Notes under the pieces: model-generated
Told to the model about the DNA's origin: nothing
Databases searched by the model: none
Seen by the model: the letters and a program-made list of their open reading frames with translations, nothing else
NCBI RefSeq assembly: GCF_024158145.1
Contig: NZ_JAMYXM010000001.1
Location: 1,054,001 to 1,118,000 of the forward strand
Origin: Notoacmeibacter sp. MSK16QG-6
GTDB lineage: Bacteria; Pseudomonadota; Alphaproteobacteria; Rhizobiales; Rhizobiaceae
DNA: 64,000 bases
Reading direction: 5' to 3'
Translations under genes and position numbers: made by a program
In this document: one piece after another, positions 24,762 to 34,060 of the stretch
How the letters are laid out: each line of letters begins with the position of its first letter
How positions within the stretch are numbered: the stretch's first letter is position 1

Positions 24762-25370
24762 TCAGTCCAAAATTGCCGCTGCCGCCTGGAAATCCAGTCT
24801 CGGCAGGCGGTCGAATTTTGGCGGCGTCATATGGCCGAGATTGCAAAGCCAGCTCGATTTCCAGGCGCCGCGCTCTGGATGGCCCTCGAAGAATTCAGCG
24901 TCGACGCCATCCTTGCTGAAACCGGCCATCGGCCCACAATCGAGGCCCAGACCGCGAGCGGCGATGAGCAGATAGGCGCCCTGCAAACTGGAATTCAGCA
25001 CCATGTGGTTGCGATATTTCGTGTCGTCCTCTGGGAGCTTGTCGAACATATGCGGCCGATCCGGAAAGAGGACCGGCATCTTCTCGTAGAATTCGGTGTC
25101 GTAGGCGATCACGACCGTCCAAGGCGCGTCGCCGGTCTTCTCCTTGTTGCTGCCGCTCATATGGGGAATAAGGCGTCTCTTCGCTTCAGAACCTTTGCGG
25201 ATGAAGAGGAAACGCGCAGGACAGGAATTGCCGGCAGTCGGTCCCATCTTCAACAGATCATAAAGTTCGCGGATCGTCTCTTCCGTGACATCGTCGTCCG
25301 TAAACCCCTGCGCCGTGCGGGCATCGCGAAAGAGGAGGTCGAAATCGTTTTCAGTAAGGCGCCTGGCCAT
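24762..25370 (-). CDS. Nitroreductase-family protein (RutE/malonic semialdehyde reductase-like)
   Basis: FMN-dependent NAD(P)H oxidoreductase of 202 residues. Matches to the RutE/HadB branch include [12 protein letters not shown] at the start, the FMN loop [42 protein letters not shown] and the substrate-side block [25 protein letters not shown]. RutE reduces malonic semialdehyde in pyrimidine breakdown; no other rut genes are near, so the substrate is unknown. It has its own transcript start after the infB terminator. Confidence 0.85.
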
Positions 25371-25441: not shown

Positions 25442-25474
25442 CAAAAGAAAAGGCGGAGCCTCTCGACCCCGCCT
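25442..25474 (-). terminator. Intrinsic terminator after infB
   Basis: On minus an eight-base stem AGGCGGGG/CTCCGCCT (one G-T pair) is followed by TTTCTTTT, about 30 bp after the infB stop. It ends the rimP-nusA-ylxR-infB operon. Confidence 0.82.
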
Positions 25475-25503: not shown

Positions 25504-28074
25504 TCAGAGCGAGCGCGCGACCTCTTCGACCGTGAAGCACTCGATGACATCCTTTTCGCGAATGTCTTCGTAGTTTTCGAAAGCCATGCCGCACTCCTGG
25601 CCGGACTGGACATCGGAGACCTCGTCCTTGAAGCGCTTCAGCGTTTTCAGCTTGCCCGTATGAATGACGACATTGTCGCGTAGAAGACGCACACCGGCGC
25701 CACGCTCCACGCGGCCCTCTGTCACGCGACAGCCTGCCACCTTGCCAACCTTCGTGATGTTGAAGACTTCCAGGATTTCGGCATAGCCGATGAAGGTCTC
25801 GCGCATCTCTGGCGAAAGCAGGCCGCTCATGGCCGCTTTCACATCGTCCACCAGATCGTAGATGATGTTGTAGTAGCGGATTTCGGTGCCGTTCTGCTCC
25901 GAGGCATCGCGCGCCTGCTTGTTGGCGCGAACGTTAAACGCGATAATCGCAGCGTTGGACGCTTCCGCCAGGCTGATATCGCTTTCAGTGATCGCGCCGG
26001 CGCCGGCATGCACCACGCGGACCTGCACCTCGTCATTGCCGACTTTTTCGAGCGCGCCGATGATCGCTTCAGCGGAACCCTGCACGTCGGCTTTGATAAG
26101 CAGCGGGAACTCAGCGATCTGATTGGCCTGCGCCTGCGCCATCATCTGTTCAAGAGAGCCGCGTGAACCCGCTTGGCGGGCCACCTGCTTCTCTCGCGCC
26201 AGACGCTGACGGTAGTCGGAAATTTCACGGGCGCGAGCCTCGTTTTCCACGACAGCGAGCCGGTCGCCAGCCTGCGGCGTACCGGATAGGCCGAGGATTT
26301 CGACCGGCATGGATGGACCGGCTTCCTTGAGCTGAGCGCCGGTGCTGTCCACCAGGGCGCGCACACGGCCCCATTCATTGCCAGCGACGACAATGTCGCC
26401 CGTGCGCAGCGTTCCGGCCTGCACCAGAACGGTGGCGACGGAACCACGGCCCTTATCGAGCTGCGCTTCGACCACCGAACCTTCCGCAGGACGATCCGGG
26501 TTTGCCTTCAGGTCGAGCAATTCGGACTGCAGCAGGATCGCTTCAAGAAGACCGTCTAGATTGGTCTTCTTGGTGGCGGAAACCTCAACATCCAGAACCT
26601 CACCGCCCATGCTTTCCACGAAAACCTCGTGCTGGAGCAGTTCGGTGCGAACCTTGCTGGCGTCTGCCGCGGGCTTGTCGATCTTGTTGATCGCCACGAT
26701 GATCGGGACGCCCGCCGCCTTGGCATGATTGATGGATTCAATGGTCTGCGGCATGACACTGTCGTCCGCCGCCACCACAAGAATTGCGATATCCGTCACC
26801 TCGGCGCCGCGCGCGCGCATCGCCGTGAAGGCGGCATGGCCGGGCGTGTCGATGAAGGTGATCTTCTGACCGTCCTTCTCCACCTGATAGGCGCCGATGT
26901 GCTGGGTGATACCGCCAGCCTCGCCGGAGACGACGTTGGCTTCACGGATCGCATCGAGCAGCGAGGTCTTGCCGTGGTCGACGTGGCCCATAATGGTCAC
27001 GACCGGCGGCCGACCTTTCATATCCTCTTCGCGGTCTTCAATATCATGGAGGCCGAGCTCAATATCGCTTTCAGAAACGCGCTTGACGGTATGGCCCATC
27101 TCGGTCGCGATCAGTTCCGCGGTATCGGCATCGATAATATCGCCGGGCTTCAACATCTGGCCCTGCTGCATCATCAGCTTAACGACATCGACCGCGCGTT
27201 CGGCCATGCGCTGGGCAAGATCCTGCACGGAGATCGTCTCCGGGATCGTGACTTCACGCATCACCTTCTCGCGCGGACCGCTGCTGGCCTGACCGCCACG
27301 GCGCGCCTTTTCCTGCCGACGACGCATGGAAGACAGCGAACGGCTGCGTCCTTCGTCGTCGTTCAGGGCGCGATTGAGCGTCAGCTTGCCCGAACGGCGG
27401 CGATTGTCGTCAGAGCGCGGCTTGGCCGGACGCGCTGTTTCGTTATCGCGCGCCTTCGTTTCCTTGCGCTGGGGCGCGGACTGACGACCGGCCGGGCGCT
27501 CTTCCATCGGTGCGTCGATGGCCTTGCTTTCCTTGCGGGCCGTATCGTCGACGCGCTTGCCGCGCTTTTCCTCGACGACAGCCTTCGCTTCGGCCTCGGC
27601 CTGAAGACGGGCGGCTTCCTCGGCGGCCTTGCGCTCTTCTTCGGCGCGCTCGGCTTCACGGCGCGCATCTTCCTCAGCCAGACGTTTGGCTTCCTGTTCG
27701 GCCGCTTCCCGCTCAACGGATTCGCGTGCCTTCGCCTCTTCCAAGGCGCGGGCGCGCGCTTCCATCTCCGCGCTGGAGAGACGTCCACCGCCGCCCTTGG
27801 CAACCGCCGGCCGTTTGGGCTGCGGTGCTGCGGGCGGGGCCTGACGCTTCGGCGGCGCGGCCGTCTCGGCCTTCGGCTCTGGCGTCGTGGCTGCATCGCC
27901 CTGCCGATCTTCCGGCCGGGTAAACTTGCGCTTCTTCGTCTCGACGACAACGGCCTTACTACGGCCATGGCTGAAGTTCTGCCGCACCGTTCCAGCCTGA
28001 TTGCCGGATGGGCGCAAGCCGAGCTTCGGCCGGACCTTAAGGGTCGTCTTGTCTTCGTTCTTGTCGTCGCTCAT
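25504..28074 (-). CDS. infB: Translation initiation factor IF-2
   Basis: GTPase that brings initiator tRNA to the 30S subunit and promotes subunit joining, 856 residues. The long N-terminal half is charged (a coiled coil rich in E, A, K and R, about 110-185) and is followed by the IF2 N-domain near [19 protein letters not shown]. The G domain shows [23 protein letters not shown] and NKIDKP. Domains II-IV follow to the end [12 protein letters not shown]. It overlaps ylxR by four bases. Confidence 0.97.
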
Positions 28075-28709
28075 TCCGTATCCTTCATTGCGGCTTCGTC
28101 CGCAGTTCCTTCATGCTCCGCCGGCCCCTGCCGATAGAGCGCCAACGCAACAATGCGCTCGAATGCCGCCTGCCCGGCCGGATGGCCAAGCACGGCAGCA
28201 TGTATCACACTTCCCGCCCCCAATGCCAAACCCAATTGTTCGGCATCGAAAAGTCGGTAAACCGGGATGTCCGGGCCACCCAAATGCCGCGTCGCTCTGG
28301 AGGCCTGTTCCACCTTGCGCAGACCGTCCGGCGCGCCATCGGTCGCATGAAGCACACAGGATGCTTCGCCGGAGCGAATTTTCGCTTCCACCTTGGCTGC
28401 ACCGAAAACGGCCCTGCCGCTCTTTCTCGCCAGCCCCAACGCTCCGAGCGCGCGATTGGCCAGCAATCGGTCGATGCGATCCGCCAGATCCGGCGGCACC
28501 TGGACATCGGTCTTCAGAGCACGGGAAAAGGCGCGGCGCTTGACCGCTTCCTCTATATATCGGCGTTCGGCACGCACCCAGCAACCCCTGCCGGGCAGAG
28601 AAGTTTTCAGATCAGGGACGATCGATCCATCCGGACCCGCAACAAAGCGCAGAAGCGCGTCACCGCGATCCGCTTTCGCGCGCGTCACAATGCATGTGCG
28701 GGTGGCCAT
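28071..28709 (-). CDS. RNA-binding protein YlxR plus L7Ae-like domain
   Basis: A 212-residue protein of the nusA-infB operon, using ATG 28709 (a TTG at 28739 is an alternative). The N-terminal YlxR domain has RTCIVTR and [27 protein letters not shown]. The second half resembles the L7Ae/YlxQ fold ([35 protein letters not shown]). In Bacillus these are two separate genes; fusions are usual in alphaproteobacteria. Role in RNA binding is inferred from the family. It is coupled to infB through an ATGA overlap. Confidence 0.88.
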
Positions 28710-28730
28710 CGCTTCCAATCGGCTTCTCCC

Positions 28731-28750
28731 TGACGCCAAACATGGCGTCA
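28731..28750 (-). promoter_or_regulatory. Hairpin covering the nusA stop codon
   Basis: A perfect eight-base inverted repeat TGACGCCA/TGGCGTCA with a four-base loop includes the nusA TGA and ends 21 bases before the ylxR ATG. No T-tract follows, so it may be a processing or coupling element, not a terminator. Confidence 0.4.
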
Positions 28751-30355
28751 GACGCTCGCTTCTTCAGTTTCGGTTTCGGCTTCGCCTTCGACTTCCGCCT
28801 CATCCTCCTGCGTCACCCAGCCGACCGACTGGCGGGCGTGCATGATCATCGCTTCGGCTTCTTCGGCGCTGACGCTGAAATCGGAGAGTGTGCCTTCGTA
28901 GACGATCGTTTCGCCATCCTTGCGTTCGCGCCATCCGGTCAGATCGTCGACGGCATAACCGGCGAAATCTTCCATGGTCTTGACTTCGTCCTTTTCGCCA
29001 ACGGCGACCATCATAGCCGTGGTCAGGCCCGGAATTTCACGCAGTTCGTCCTCGACGCCGAGTTCGCGGCGCTTTTCGTCCAGTTCGCCCTCGATCCGCT
29101 CGATATATTCACGCGCGCGGGTCTGTATCTCCTCGGCGGTCTCTTCATCGAAGCCGTCGATTTCAGAAATTTCCTCCGGCTCGACATAGGCGACTTCCTC
29201 GATGGAGGTGAAGCCTTCCGACGCCAGAACCTGACCGACCATCTCGTCCACATCGAGCGCTTCCATGAACAGTTCTGAACGTTCCTGGAACTCCGCCTGA
29301 CGGCGCTCGCTCTCTTTTTCTTCGGTGAGAATGTCGATGGCCCAACCGGTCAACTGGCTGGCGAGGCGCACATTCTGGCCACGGCGTCCAATCGCCAGGC
29401 TCTGCTGGTCGTCCGGCACCACCACTTCAATGCGGTTGGCGTCCTCATCGAGCACGACCTTGGCAACTTCCGCCGGCTGCAGGGCGTTGACGATGAAAGA
29501 GGCAGCATCGGGCGACCACGGAATGATATCGATCTTCTCGCCGGAGAGTTCGCCGACGACCGCCTGAACACGACTTCCGCGCATGCCAACGCAGGCGCCG
29601 ACGGGATCGATAGAGGAATCTCGGCTGATAACGGCGATCTTCGCACGGCTGCCTGGATCGCGTGCAACGGCGCGGATCTCGATGATGCCATCGTAGATTT
29701 CCGGCACTTCCATCTGGAAGAGCTTGGCCATGAATTGCGGGTGGCTGCGCGACAGGAAGACCTGCGGACCGCGCTGCTCGCGACGCACGTCGTAAACATA
29801 GGCACGAATGCGGTCGCCATATTTGTAGAGTTCACGCGGAATGCCTTCATCGCGGCGGATGATGCCTTCTCCGCGCCCGAGGTCGACGATGACGTTGCCG
29901 TATTCGACACGCTTGACCGAACCGTTGACGATCTCGCCGACCCGGTCCTTGAATTCCTCGTACTGGCGATCGCGCTCGGCTTCGCGCACCTTCTGGACGA
30001 TCACCTGCTTTGCCGACTGCGCCGCGATGCGGCCGAAATCCATAGGCGGCAGCTGTTCGGCGATGAACATGCCGACCTCGGCATCGGGCTGGCGTTCGCG
30101 CGCATCGCCAAGCTGGATCTGGGTGTGGTAGTCCTCCACATCCTCGACGACTTCGAGCAGACGCTGCAACTTTATCTCGCCGGATTGCGGGTTGATGTCG
30201 GTGCGGATGTTGGTTTCCTGGCCGTAACGGGCGCGGGCGGCTTTGGAAATCGCATCCGCCATCGCCTCGATGACGATCCGGCGATCGATGTTCTTCTCAC
30301 GGGCGACCGCATCGGCGATCTGCACCAGTTCCAGTCTGTTCGCACTAACAGCCAT
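28748..30355 (-). CDS. nusA: Transcription termination/antitermination factor NusA
   Basis: RNA polymerase-bound elongation factor that modulates pausing, termination and antitermination, 535 residues from ATG 30355 (CAGGAGAGA upstream). The N-terminal polymerase-binding domain is followed by S1 (about 135-200; NGSVKRVEYGNVIVDLGRGEGII), then two KH domains (IDPVGACVGMRGSRVQAVVGEL and QSLAIGRRGQNVRLASQLTG), and then C-terminal acidic repeats (about 350-500) as in many proteobacteria. It is the natural candidate to act at the terminator in its own operon leader. Confidence 0.97.
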   Translation of the reverse strand: MAVSANRLELVQIADAVAREKNIDRRIVIEAMADAISKAARARYGQETNIRTDINPQSGEIKLQRLLEVVEDVEDYHTQIQLGDARERQPDAEVGMFIAEQLPPMDFGRIAAQSAKQVIVQKVREAERDRQYEEFKDRVGEIVNGSVKRVEYGNVIVDLGRGEGIIRRDEGIPRELYKYGDRIRAYVYDVRREQRGPQVFLSRSHPQFMAKLFQMEVPEIYDGIIEIRAVARDPGSRAKIAVISRDSSIDPVGACVGMRGSRVQAVVGELSGEKIDIIPWSPDAASFIVNALQPAEVAKVVLDEDANRIEVVVPDDQQSLAIGRRGQNVRLASQLTGWAIDILTEEKESERRQAEFQERSELFMEALDVDEMVGQVLASEGFTSIEEVAYVEPEEISEIDGFDEETAEEIQTRAREYIERIEGELDEKRRELGVEDELREIPGLTTAMMVAVGEKDEVKTMEDFAGYAVDDLTGWRERKDGETIVYEGTLSDFSVSAEEAEAMIMHARQSVGWVTQEDEAEVEGEAETETEEASV

Positions 30356-30412: not shown

Positions 30413-31042
30413 TCACTCATCCGCCGAATCGGCGGTGTCCTCATTGTCGTTATCACCATCAAGACCCTTCTTTCGGGCCTTTCGCGCCGCGCGCTCCTTG
30501 GAAAGGGCGTCGCGGATCAAATCGTCGGTTAGTATAAGCCGCGCGTCCGAAACCGTGTCGAACGGAATTTCGACCTCGGCTTCATCGCCGTAGCCGAGCG
30601 TATCACGCTTGAGCGTGAAACCCTGATCGGTCACGGACTGGATGAAGCCTCTAAACTTGCGCCGACCCGACAGGATGACGCTGGTCTCGATCTTTGCCAG
30701 ATGACTTTCCCAATTGCGAAAATCGCTCTTGGCGACGAGCGGCCTATCGATACCGGGTGAAGACACTTCCAGATTGTAGGCGCCTTCGATTGGATCATCG
30801 ACGTCAAGCGCCGGGGAGATGGCGCGCGACAGTTCCTCACAGTCCTCGACCGTCATCGTGCCGTCGGTTTTCTCGGCGAAGATCTGCAGAGTCTTGCCGT
30901 TCTGGCCCGTGATCCGTACCCGAACCAGACGAAAATCCATCGCCTGCATAACCGGCTCGATGATCGTGGCGACATGCGCCTCGACACCTGTTTCGTGAAT
31001 GATGCGGTCATCCGGTCCGGACAAGGCGCACTCCGTTTTCAT
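30413..31042 (-). CDS. rimP: Ribosome maturation factor RimP
   Basis: Early 30S assembly factor, 209 residues. ATG 31042 is taken (a TTG three bases upstream is in frame). The conserved SSPGIDRPL and the acidic block [22 protein letters not shown] identify the family; a charged C-terminal tail ([17 protein letters not shown]) is lineage-specific. It is the first gene of rimP-nusA-ylxR-infB. An intrinsic terminator ends only about 17 bases before its start codon, so the whole operon depends on read-through or on a promoter not recognised here. Confidence 0.95.
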
Positions 31043-31058
31043 CAAAAGATTGCCGGTA

Positions 31059-31092
31059 ATAAAAAAGAGCGGGACCCGGGGGGACCCACTCT
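31059..31092 (-). terminator. Intrinsic terminator/attenuator in the rimP leader
   Basis: On minus, a 12-base stem (31081-31092 with 31066-31077; one T-T mismatch and one T-G pair) with a CCC loop is followed by TTTTTTATT. It lies between a recognisable promoter (31121-31149) and the rimP start, so it could attenuate the operon. It may also simply end the upstream oxidoreductase transcript. Confidence 0.85.
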
Positions 31093-31120
31093 CCGTCTAA
31101 CCGACCAAGAACTTGGGTTT

Positions 31121-31149
31121 CCTATACGCCCGCGATACGGCATTTGCAA
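31121..31149 (-). promoter_or_regulatory. Putative sigma-70-type promoter of the rimP operon
   Basis: On minus, TTGCAA (31149-31144), a 17-base spacer and TATAGG (31126-31121) form a plausible -35/-10 pair, upstream of the leader terminator. It implies a leader of roughly 70 bases, including a small CCAAG/CTTGG hairpin. Confidence 0.5.
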
Positions 31150-31173: not shown

Positions 31174-31851
31174 TTATCCGTCCATTCCGTCTTCGAATAC
31201 GATTTTGTCCTTTCGCGCACCGAGCGCCAGCAATGCGTCCTTTACGTCGCCCACAAAGGCTTCCGGGCCGCAAATATAGAAATACTGATCGAAATCGTCG
31301 ACGTGGTGAGACAGGAATGTGCGGTCGACGCGCCCGAGAGCATGAGGACTCTCTGGCTGGTCGGTGACGGTGTACAGCGTCTGAAGCCCATCCATCGCGT
31401 CCCATTCATCCTTCAGGATAATGTCCTTTTCAGACTTGTTGCTGAAGATCAGCCGGTTGCCGTCTATCTCGCCCTTTTCACCGAGGCTTCGCAGGATCGC
31501 GATGAAAGGCGTAACACCTGCGCCAGCCGCGATAAAAGTGCCGGCGCCCTTGTAATCAATCGTGCCCCACGGCTCATTGATCACAATAGCGTCCCCGGCA
31601 TGAAGCCGATCGATCTGCTCGGTGACGCCGTCGTGGCTTGGATAAATCTTGATGGTGAACTCAAGATCGGGGTCGCCGGTCAATCCGGTGAATGTGAAGG
31701 GTCGGTCTTCATCTCGCCAGCCCGGCTTGTCGATATGGACGTCAGTGGCATGGCCGGGTGTAAAATCGAAGCCGCTCGGCCGTTCCACGACAAGCCGGTC
31801 CACATTGTGCGTCACCTGCTCGGTGGATTTGATCGTGACCGTATGAGCCAT
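31174..31851 (-). CDS. FNR-family flavin oxidoreductase (flavodoxin/ferredoxin reductase-like)
   Basis: A 225-residue single-unit reductase with the FAD-binding beta-barrel and NAD(P)-binding half of the ferredoxin-NADP reductase superfamily. Motifs are RPFTFTGL (flavin site), GAGVTPFIAILRSL (pyrophosphate/nicotinamide site) and YICGPEAFVGDVKDALLALG. There is no iron-sulfur or globin domain, so it would pair with a separate redox partner that is not seen nearby. It lies downstream of trmB on the same strand. Confidence 0.85.
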   Translation of the reverse strand: MAHTVTIKSTEQVTHNVDRLVVERPSGFDFTPGHATDVHIDKPGWRDEDRPFTFTGLTGDPDLEFTIKIYPSHDGVTEQIDRLHAGDAIVINEPWGTIDYKGAGTFIAAGAGVTPFIAILRSLGEKGEIDGNRLIFSNKSEKDIILKDEWDAMDGLQTLYTVTDQPESPHALGRVDRTFLSHHVDDFDQYFYICGPEAFVGDVKDALLALGARKDKIVFEDGMDG

Positions 31852-32652: not shown

Positions 32653-33906
32653 TCAGGCGCTCTGCCGGATCGCTTCTTTAAGGGCTTTCTTCAGATCGGT
32701 CTTTTCCCAAGAGAACGAACCGCCGCGACCGGGCTTGCGCCCAAAATGGCCGTACGCGGCCGTTTGCGCATAGATCGGCTTGTTGAGATCGAGGTGTTTG
32801 CGGATGCCGGTTGGCGACAGGTCCATAACCTCGCGAACAGCCTTCTCAACCGCTTCTGCGGTCACGCGGCCGGTCCCGTGCAAATCGACATAAACCGAAA
32901 GCGGCTGCGCCACACCGATGGCGTAAGACAACTGGATGGTGCAGCGGCTTGCCAGACCGGCGGCTACGACATTCTTGGCCAGATAACGCGCCGCATAGGC
33001 AGCCGAACGGTCCACCTTGGTGGTGTCCTTGCCGGAAAAAGCACCGCCGCCATGGGGCGCCATGCCGCCATAGGTGTCGACGATGATCTTGCGGCCGGTC
33101 AGCCCGGCATCGCCATCCGGCCCGCCAATGACGAACTTGCCGGTCGGATTGATGTACCAGTCGCAGTCGTCGGCCACGGCAAGGCCGCCCTCTTCAAGCG
33201 CTTGGCGAATGTAAGGCTCGACGACCTTGCGGACTTTCTTGCTATCCCAGCTTTCGTCCATGTGCTGTGTCGACAGCACGATCTGGGTGGCCTCCTTCGG
33301 CTTTCCGCCTTCATACCGGACGGTGACCTGGCTTTTGGCGTCAGGGCCGAGCTTGCCAGCATCTCCCTCACCGGCATGTCGCGCCTCCGCCAGAAGCTGG
33401 AGAATGCGATGCGAATACCAGATCGGCGCGGGCATCAGATCCGGCGTTTCGTCACACGCATAGCCAAACATGATACCCTGATCGCCAGCACCCTCTTCGC
33501 CCTGCCGGTCGGCGGCATTGTCGACACCCTGGGCGATATCCGCGCTCTGGCTATGAAGCAGAACGTCGATCTTGCAGGTCTTCCAGTGGAAGCCATCCTG
33601 TTCGTAACCGATATCGCGAATGGCCCGACGGGCCGCGGAGCGGAAACGGGTCGGATTGATGACGTCGTTTCCGTTCTTATCCTTCTTCATCAGGGTCGGA
33701 GGCAGACGCACCTCACCGGCGATCACAACGCGGTTCGTCGTCGTCAGCGTTTCACAGGCCGTGCGAACATTCCACGGATCGACGCCGGTCTTGCGAGCCT
33801 CCTTGTAGACAAGATCGACGATCTCGTCGGAGATGCGGTCGCATACCTTGTCGGGATGGCCTTCAGACACCGATTCGCTGGTGAAGTGGTAGTTCTGTCG
33901 TGACAC
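32653..33906 (-). CDS. metK: S-adenosylmethionine synthetase
   Basis: Makes SAM from methionine and ATP; 417 residues. GTG 33906 is chosen because it yields the family start [20 protein letters not shown]; upstream codons in the open frame have no family match. Active-site blocks [13 protein letters not shown], the flexible loop [31 protein letters not shown] and [19 protein letters not shown] are all present. The leader to the XRE gene (about 150 bp) shows no SAM-II or SAM/SAH riboswitch pattern that I can recognise. Confidence 0.96.
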
Positions 33907-34060
33907 GATTGCCTGCCTATGGTCTAGCAGCGGGACCGAGCGGCGCCGCCCTTTAATTACGGGAAAGGTCGCGCGGCCTTGTGCCAATCGAATATGACAT
34001 GGTCAAGCACGTTCGCGCTGAAGATGCGACGATGGCGCGTTCAGCCACGTCAGAACGATG

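Follow-up and report, generated by a model that had tools for sequence, protein, structure and literature searches.

Is the rimP-nusA-ylxR-infB operon of Notoacmeibacter sp. MSK16QG-6 preceded by a transcription attenuator, and what could set the balance between termination and readthrough? The operon is located on the minus strand of a stretch of DNA of 64,000 nucleotides, hereafter called the window, to which all coordinates refer. A preliminary description of the window had pointed to a promoter and a terminator-like stem upstream of rimP. We analyzed this leader together with the corresponding leaders of related genomes.

The rimP operon leader in the window

The gene order on the minus strand is metK, trmB, FAD/NAD oxidoreductase, leader, rimP, nusA, ylxR and infB (Table 1). 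The four genes from rimP to infB lie on the same strand downstream of the stem, as had been described and as can be observed from the open reading frames and the domain matches; in addition, an L7Ae-like domain in the ylxR product scores under the Pfam cut-off. The RimP proteins of the window and of N. marinus (locus L031) share about 87% identity. The oxidoreductase gene between trmB and rimP is present in the window and in locus L003 and absent in N. marinus. A 16S rRNA model gave no match in three genomes of the genus (G000, G001 and G002), whose assemblies perhaps lack this sequence. The hairpin downstream of infB is possibly the end of the transcription unit, and the stretch that contains it has five such terminator-like sites, versus 4.2 expected. 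A nitroreductase-like gene (24762-25370, minus strand) is located between infB and rbfA, and is followed by truB, corA, rpsO and pnp.

Table 1. Features of the rimP operon and its leader, in the direction of transcription.
Feature	Position	Strand	Remarks
metK	32653-33987	-	recognised by eye among the listed ORFs
FAD/NAD oxidoreductase	31174-31851	-	between trmB and the rimP leader
-35 hexamer TTGCAA	31144..31149	-	read directly
-10 hexamer TATAGG	31121..31126	-	17-nt spacer to -35; read directly
putative transcription start region	31112..31116	-	deduced from the promoter, about 5-9 nt after -10
predicted P1 5' arm UCUUGGUC	31103..31110	-	pairs with the P1 3' arm
predicted P1 3' arm GACGGAGA	31090..31097	-	31093-31090 is also the base of the terminator 5' arm
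terminator hairpin GAGAGUGGGUCCC CCC GGGUCCCGCUCUU	31065..31093	-	12 pairs, one U.U mismatch (predicted folds)
U-tract TTTTTTATT	31058..31066	-	TTTTTT 31066-31061 and ATT 31060-31058
probable Shine-Dalgarno ACGGAG	31031..31036	-	ACGGAG in L031 and L002, GCGGAG in L003
rimP	30413..31024	-	RimP_N and DUF150_C domains; NCBIfam RimP equivalog
nusA	28748..30355	-	TIGR01953 NusA, 455.6 bits
ylxR	28071..28739	-	PF04296 (YlxR domain); NF006622
infB	25504..28074	-	TIGR00487 IF-2, 786.9 bits
terminator-like hairpin 3' of infB	25451..25474	-	10 pairs, 7 G-C, then TTTCTTTTGT

The promoter pair already noted in the preliminary description was read directly at 31149-31121 on the minus strand. Its score is higher than that of 99.9% of 2000 shuffles, with a scoring tuned to the promoter of the family; the promoter was absent from the output of a general pattern scan of the window. 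The 12-base stem was also recovered by folding, at 31093-31065, with the U.U mismatch at 31084/31074 and CCC as the loop. Judged from the window sequence by itself, the case for a terminator beyond chance is weak: the pattern scan gave two terminator-like sites versus 1.9 expected from shuffling, and the fold of the 120-nt leader is only a little better than those of its own shuffles (z -1.21).

The stem had been placed about 17 bases before the rimP ATG. The distance agrees with the sequence, in which ATG 31042 lies 15 nt past the ATT that ends the U-tract; the choice of start codon agrees less well. The longest rimP ORF would begin at TTG 31045 or ATG 31042, and the start is probably TTG 31024-31022, 33 nt from the ATT, because L002, L003 and L031 lack a counterpart of ATG 31042 and because L003 has an in-frame TGA two codons upstream of the TTG that matches window position 31024. 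The ACGGAG of L031 is found six bases before the TTG, as in the window. A leader peptide was considered and rejected: the AUG within GGUAUGACGAAGAG of many relatives is missing in the window (GGUUAGACGG), and there is no conserved ORF.

Conservation and range of the promoter-terminator unit

The analysis of relatives was performed on 110 first loci (30 from a genome search and 80 from a contig search, with some organisms present twice), which were extended to 161 Rhizobiaceae loci with 11 loci from a covariance model search (L114-L124) and 40 more distant ones; the 161 loci represent 142 distinct promoter regions, and some organisms are counted twice. Of the 161 loci, 159 have a best promoter with a spacer of 17 nt, and in 154 the gap between the best promoter and the stem's GUGGG measures 29-32 nt. 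The -35 element of the best promoter starts with TTG in all 161, with a scoring that itself favours TTG. A promoter score of at least 12 was reached in 156 loci (97%) versus 2.4% of the shuffled regions, a comparison to be read with the tuning of the scoring to the Rhizobiaceae family in mind. Judged by sequence, a promoter precedes the stem in all 161 loci, which bears on the possibility that the operon transcript starts downstream of the stem.

The core pattern, UCUUG and then a GUGG...CUCUUU stem, was found before rimP in all 110 first loci, in 79 distinct forms. In the alignment of 53 leaders (A3), GUGGG, CCCGCUC and five T of the U-run are invariant, and the T-run is also kept in 37/37 further Rhizobiaceae leaders with the strict hairpin. 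The conservation profile of 104 sequences less than 85% alike climbs from about 31112-31116, the presumed start region, stays mostly at 1-2 bits through the stem and the U-tract, and is about 0.1 bits on both flanks of the unit, the promoter boxes apart. The distance from the stem to the gene is variable (from 40 to 149 nt in the 110 loci, measured to an aligned residue of RimP), and the stop codon of the trmB or oxidoreductase homologue is located before the -35 element in all 72 loci measured of the 110. A chance terminator was rejected in spite of the weak one-sequence statistics, since the promoter and the terminator are kept in relatives, and it is this conservation that settles the point. 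Promoter and terminator are conserved as one unit, with near-fixed spacing, before rimP, and this supports the attenuator that the preliminary description had proposed for the operon.

A covariance model built from 53 distinct leaders found a single match in the genome of the window (E 2.1e-13), the next two candidates (0.7 and 3.3) not being near rimP. Under strict filters, matches at E<=0.1 were obtained in 167 of the 297 genomes of the order, and among the best 29 of these 167 (L114-L142) rimP is behind the match in 29. Among loci of the class, a script called a terminator before rimP in 275/280, a count that includes some organisms twice and some script mis-picks (L134, L155, L170, L192) and leaves out L112 and L113, which are weak own-genome matches without rimP. 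The strict hairpin pattern, which misses variants and a few of whose matches are unrelated hairpins, was present in 37/40 distant Rhizobiaceae, 37/50 loci of other families of the order and 33/40 loci of other orders. The loci of the order beyond the first set (L143-L202) represent 60 of 108 genomes with a match (111 searched), taken one per each of 50 families first, and 4 of these 108 genomes are Rhizobiaceae; those of other orders (L203-L242) come from a search of 190 genomes, of which 158 gave a match, and 40 were chosen for better RimP matches and not at random. Most of the leaders examined read GUGGG(C)C...GG(C)CCGC or CCCAC, followed by U.

The CGCUCUUU of the stem resembles the core of boxA. 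Many leaders of other orders have CCCACUUU instead, which speaks against a boxA. In one leader of another family (L202, genome G258, family f33), a 50-bp unit, GAGAGCGGGCC...CCGCTCTTTTTG, is repeated upstream of rimP at 150-379 (4.6 copies, 98% matches), and the repeated unit contains the stem halves and the U-tract.

A predicted 5' hairpin sharing the base of the terminator

The preliminary description was right about the promoter and the terminator and missed a competing hairpin at the 5' end, here named P1. The predicted P1 has a G.G mismatch in its middle and shares the four bases 31093-31090 with the terminator, so that in the predictions both hairpins cannot close together; by prediction, the leader thus has the two mutually exclusive hairpins of a terminator/antiterminator pair. 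A UCUU or UCUC site is found 5' of the stem in 159/161 Rhizobiaceae loci. An extra helix of the window, CCCA/UGGG, is not kept in L002 and L003.

For the analysis of P1, the RNA was folded up to the shared bases, before the 3' arm of the terminator exists, and compared with shuffles; only leaders with a terminator call were used (39 distinct and 40 Rhizobiaceae leaders, 47/50 of other families and 38/40 of other orders). In the window, the shared bases pair upstream with a probability of 0.99, versus 0.45 in the shuffles (p 0.010), and in the genus leaders L002 (p 0.100) and L003 (p 0.087) the pairing is high and singly not significant. The mean upstream pairing was 0.92 versus 0.52 shuffled in the distinct Rhizobiaceae leaders of L001-L110, with 27/39 at p<=0.05, and 0.82 versus 0.55 in the diverse Rhizobiaceae leaders, with 24/40 at p<=0.05. 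In other families of the order the values were 0.73 versus 0.60 (7/47 at p<=0.05), and 6/17 distinct leaders of nearby families reached p<=0.05; in other orders the pairing was no better than in the shuffles (0.54 versus 0.53, 7/38 at p<=0.05). Because the excess over shuffles fades in other families and orders, the predicted P1 is a feature of the Rhizobiaceae and some neighbours and not of the rimP leader at large.

Co-changes were counted on 66 distinct P1 segments from 159/161 loci; L245 and L254 were left out owing to the absence of a UCUU/UCUC site, L245 being also outside the MAFFT alignment A4. This alignment shifted one P1 subgroup, and the pairs were therefore counted by a script on an anchored layout. 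For a few leaders, including L258, L268, L281 and the unusual L243, the script settled on an incorrect site; these leaders were kept in the counts. Pair p4-x4, whose x4 is a base shared with the terminator, holds in 63/66 segments (U-A 43, C-G 13, U-G 7) versus at most 57 in shuffles, with the letters of p1-p4 partly fixed by construction through the required UCUU/UCUC site. Among 62 segments, pair p6-x6 reads G-C 22 times and A-U 8 times; pairing at p7 and p8 is above shuffles and that at p9 is no different from them, and p5-x5 is paired less than in shuffles (21/66 versus 28.6), with the G.G mismatch in 29. On a RimP tree of 100 sequences, the partner co-changed in about 2/4 independent pairs at p4-x4 and in 2/2 at p6-x6, never in the opposite way, numbers too few for significance. 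In L243, from a genome of 1.2 Mb, the shared segment has changed to AAAGG, its upstream partner reads CCUUU and the terminator has CCCUUU, and both helices are kept, as judged by eye.

The predicted energies of the two states of the window leader are -23.6 kcal/mol with the terminator closed and -22.2 kcal/mol with P1 closed (1.4 apart), and the 5' part alone folds at -9.1 kcal/mol. The exchange is near even because the 5' arm of P1 resembles the terminator's own 3' arm. The terminator-closed state is predicted to be the better one in all 77 distinct leaders, with a median of 2.2 kcal/mol and within 3 kcal/mol in 60; since the complete terminator is the better state throughout, termination may simply be the default.

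From these observations the following mechanism can be proposed. RNA polymerase would start from the leader's own promoter, some 25 nt upstream of the stem's GUGGG, as the sequence and its conservation suggest, and the first 20 nt or so are predicted to fold into P1 before the terminator is made. The terminator needs the four bases that close P1, and once it takes them transcription would stop after roughly 55 nt; as long as P1 holds them, the stem could not reach the U-tract and the polymerase would read through into rimP-nusA-ylxR-infB. Termination with some readthrough would then be the default state, and readthrough would rise when P1 holds the shared bases. A factor that favours closure of the terminator, by precedent most likely the NusA made from the operon, would give feedback. 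NusA-dependent termination before ylxS-nusA in B. subtilis was reportedly described by Mondal in 2016. With the E. coli precedent given below, NusA feedback on the present operon is plausible.

Rival readings and relation to known rimP leaders

The reading that we favour, with moderate confidence, is that the rimP-nusA-ylxR-infB leader attenuates transcription in the manner of the known rimP leaders, with competition by P1 and plausible NusA feedback. More tentatively, and as something that we would rather doubt than assert, the Rhizobiaceae may have added to an ancient rimP leader a start-site hairpin that copies the 3' arm of the terminator (UCUU/UCUC versus CUCUU) and competes for the same bases; the result would be a near-balanced switch that lets NusA or temperature set the levels of NusA, IF2 and RimP, and in some lineages the hairpin would have outlived its U-tract and work by another route.

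An attenuator without regulation is an unlikely explanation, and still one of the two strongest rivals. The terminator would set a fixed level of operon expression and also end the upstream mRNA, and P1 would be a harmless by-product of the U/C-rich start-site sequence facing an A/G-rich arm. This would agree with the predicted preference for the terminated state in every leader, with the small number of independent P1 co-changes, and with the pairing of 0.52-0.55 that shuffled leaders already reach with the terminator base from base make-up; against it stand the excess of pairing over shuffles in 51/79 Rhizobiaceae leaders (p<=0.05; the leaders are related and not independent), the UCUUG 5' of the stem in 110/110 first loci, and the feedback by NusA that the literature gives for this operon in E. 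coli.

We give a similarly low probability to the possibility that the GUGGG...CCCGC hairpin is mainly a site for protein binding or pausing, used by NusA or another RNA-binding product, with the U-tract secondary. In the 53 leaders, 0/11 pairs of the terminator stem changed on both sides; the stem is thus kept by its letters, which points to binding by a protein and not to pairing alone, and a protein that reads the motif was argued for by Naville and Gautheret (PMC2965389). Moreover, in 5/50 family representatives (L155, L170, L174, L185, L192) the hairpin before rimP has a poor or degenerate U-tract, which plain intrinsic termination would not preserve and a bound protein or a pause might; in the further "poor" rows L166, L171 and L179, and in the "poor" rows of other orders, the hairpin seems to be an unrelated one. 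Against a mere binding site stands the T-run, which it would not need and which is kept in all the A3 leaders and all the further Rhizobiaceae leaders with the strict hairpin.

It is improbable that the leader is a cold or kinetic sensor, in which P1, formed first, would open slowly at low temperature, or the hairpins would be acted on by cold-shock proteins, with readthrough after a drop in temperature. P1 is made first (the above predicted -9.1 kcal/mol in the window), and for E. coli it has been proposed that Csp proteins cause antitermination in this operon (Bae 2000, cited in PMC6511841), whereas the E. coli data of PMC6511841 itself are not consistent with this proposal. A role in trans of the roughly 55-nt terminated RNA as a small RNA is very improbable: the RNA is short, conserved and terminator-ended, and hundreds of short transcripts from mRNA leaders are reported for S. 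meliloti in PMC2873474, in whose main text nusA and infB are not named, but the P1 loop varies, no conserved single-stranded seed stands out, and the unit is single-copy in its own genome, beside rimP. The notion that the stem serves solely to end the mRNA of the oxidoreductase (or trmB), although it would also halt a polymerase arriving from 31174 upstream, is hardly credible and was rejected, because the stem is behind a conserved promoter, because N. marinus, in which the oxidoreductase gene is lacking and trmB adjoins the leader, keeps promoter and stem with few changes, and because the oxidoreductase gene is directly upstream in only 2/110 loci.

As for known systems, the kind of attenuator proposed here is already known, and the P1 overlapping the base of the terminator seems new. 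The rimP leader was described by Naville and Gautheret in 2010 (PMC2965389) as a Rho-independent terminator with a GGG...CCC stem upstream of rimP-nusA-infB and was called the most ubiquitous predicted attenuator, with no antiterminator seen in its general form. The window leader resembles it in the predicted G-rich 5' arm, C-rich 3' arm and U-tract, in its apparent location in the 5' region of a rimP-nusA-infB operon with a promoter before it, and in the distance from terminator to gene, which to either the ATG or the TTG is within the 4-130 nt given in that text. It differs by the predicted additional 5' hairpin that overlaps the stem base, and, with GGG...CCC present, by the next position, which is a U.U mismatch and not the c...g of the published GGGc...gCCC. 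The base after GTGGG is unpaired in 35/56 distinct Rhizobiaceae stems (17 paired, 4 without GTGGG), and paired in 37/56 stems in the rest of the order and 24/36 in other orders. The tandem rimP leader of some Gammaproteobacteria, described in the same paper, likewise has a terminator and a possible antiterminator before rimP; it has a second upstream terminator with CCCg...cGGG, whereas the window has only one terminator, and the short predicted hairpin that overlaps it lies close to the start site.

The main text of PMC2965389, whose supplement lists more species, does not contain the terms Rhizob-, Alphaproteobacteria, Agrobacterium, Brucella, Sinorhizobium or Caulobacter, and mentions Ehrlichia and Pelagibacter in other contexts. 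No description of an alphaproteobacterial rimP leader or antiterminator was found in the literature searched, supplements aside (that of 2010 may list such species), and word searches for such a leader within the accessible text of PMC2573895 and PMC2780559 gave no match. The Rfam family RF01770 (rimP) has, by name, the same gene context; the genome of the window, searched at E<=1, and a scan of the region gave no match to the family and nothing above its gathering cut-off, and the family was matched in 8/14 control genomes, over its cut-off in one. The leader could supply Rfam with an alphaproteobacterial model, now lacking for the rimP leader. The form with P1, whose competing hairpin is defined, occurs in a family with easy laboratory species, and the question of the rimP-leader signal thereby becomes testable by a few base swaps; if NusA acts at the leader, a termination factor would be acting back directly on its own terminator in the Rhizobiaceae.

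A precedent for such feedback is E. coli, in which NusA represses the operon (cited in PMC2965389 and PMC6511841) and the operon transcripts rise when NusA termination is reduced (PMC6511841). With the autoregulated nusA operons of E. coli and B. subtilis, the leader described here appears to share, judging by its sequence alone, the same operon and a terminator in the leader.
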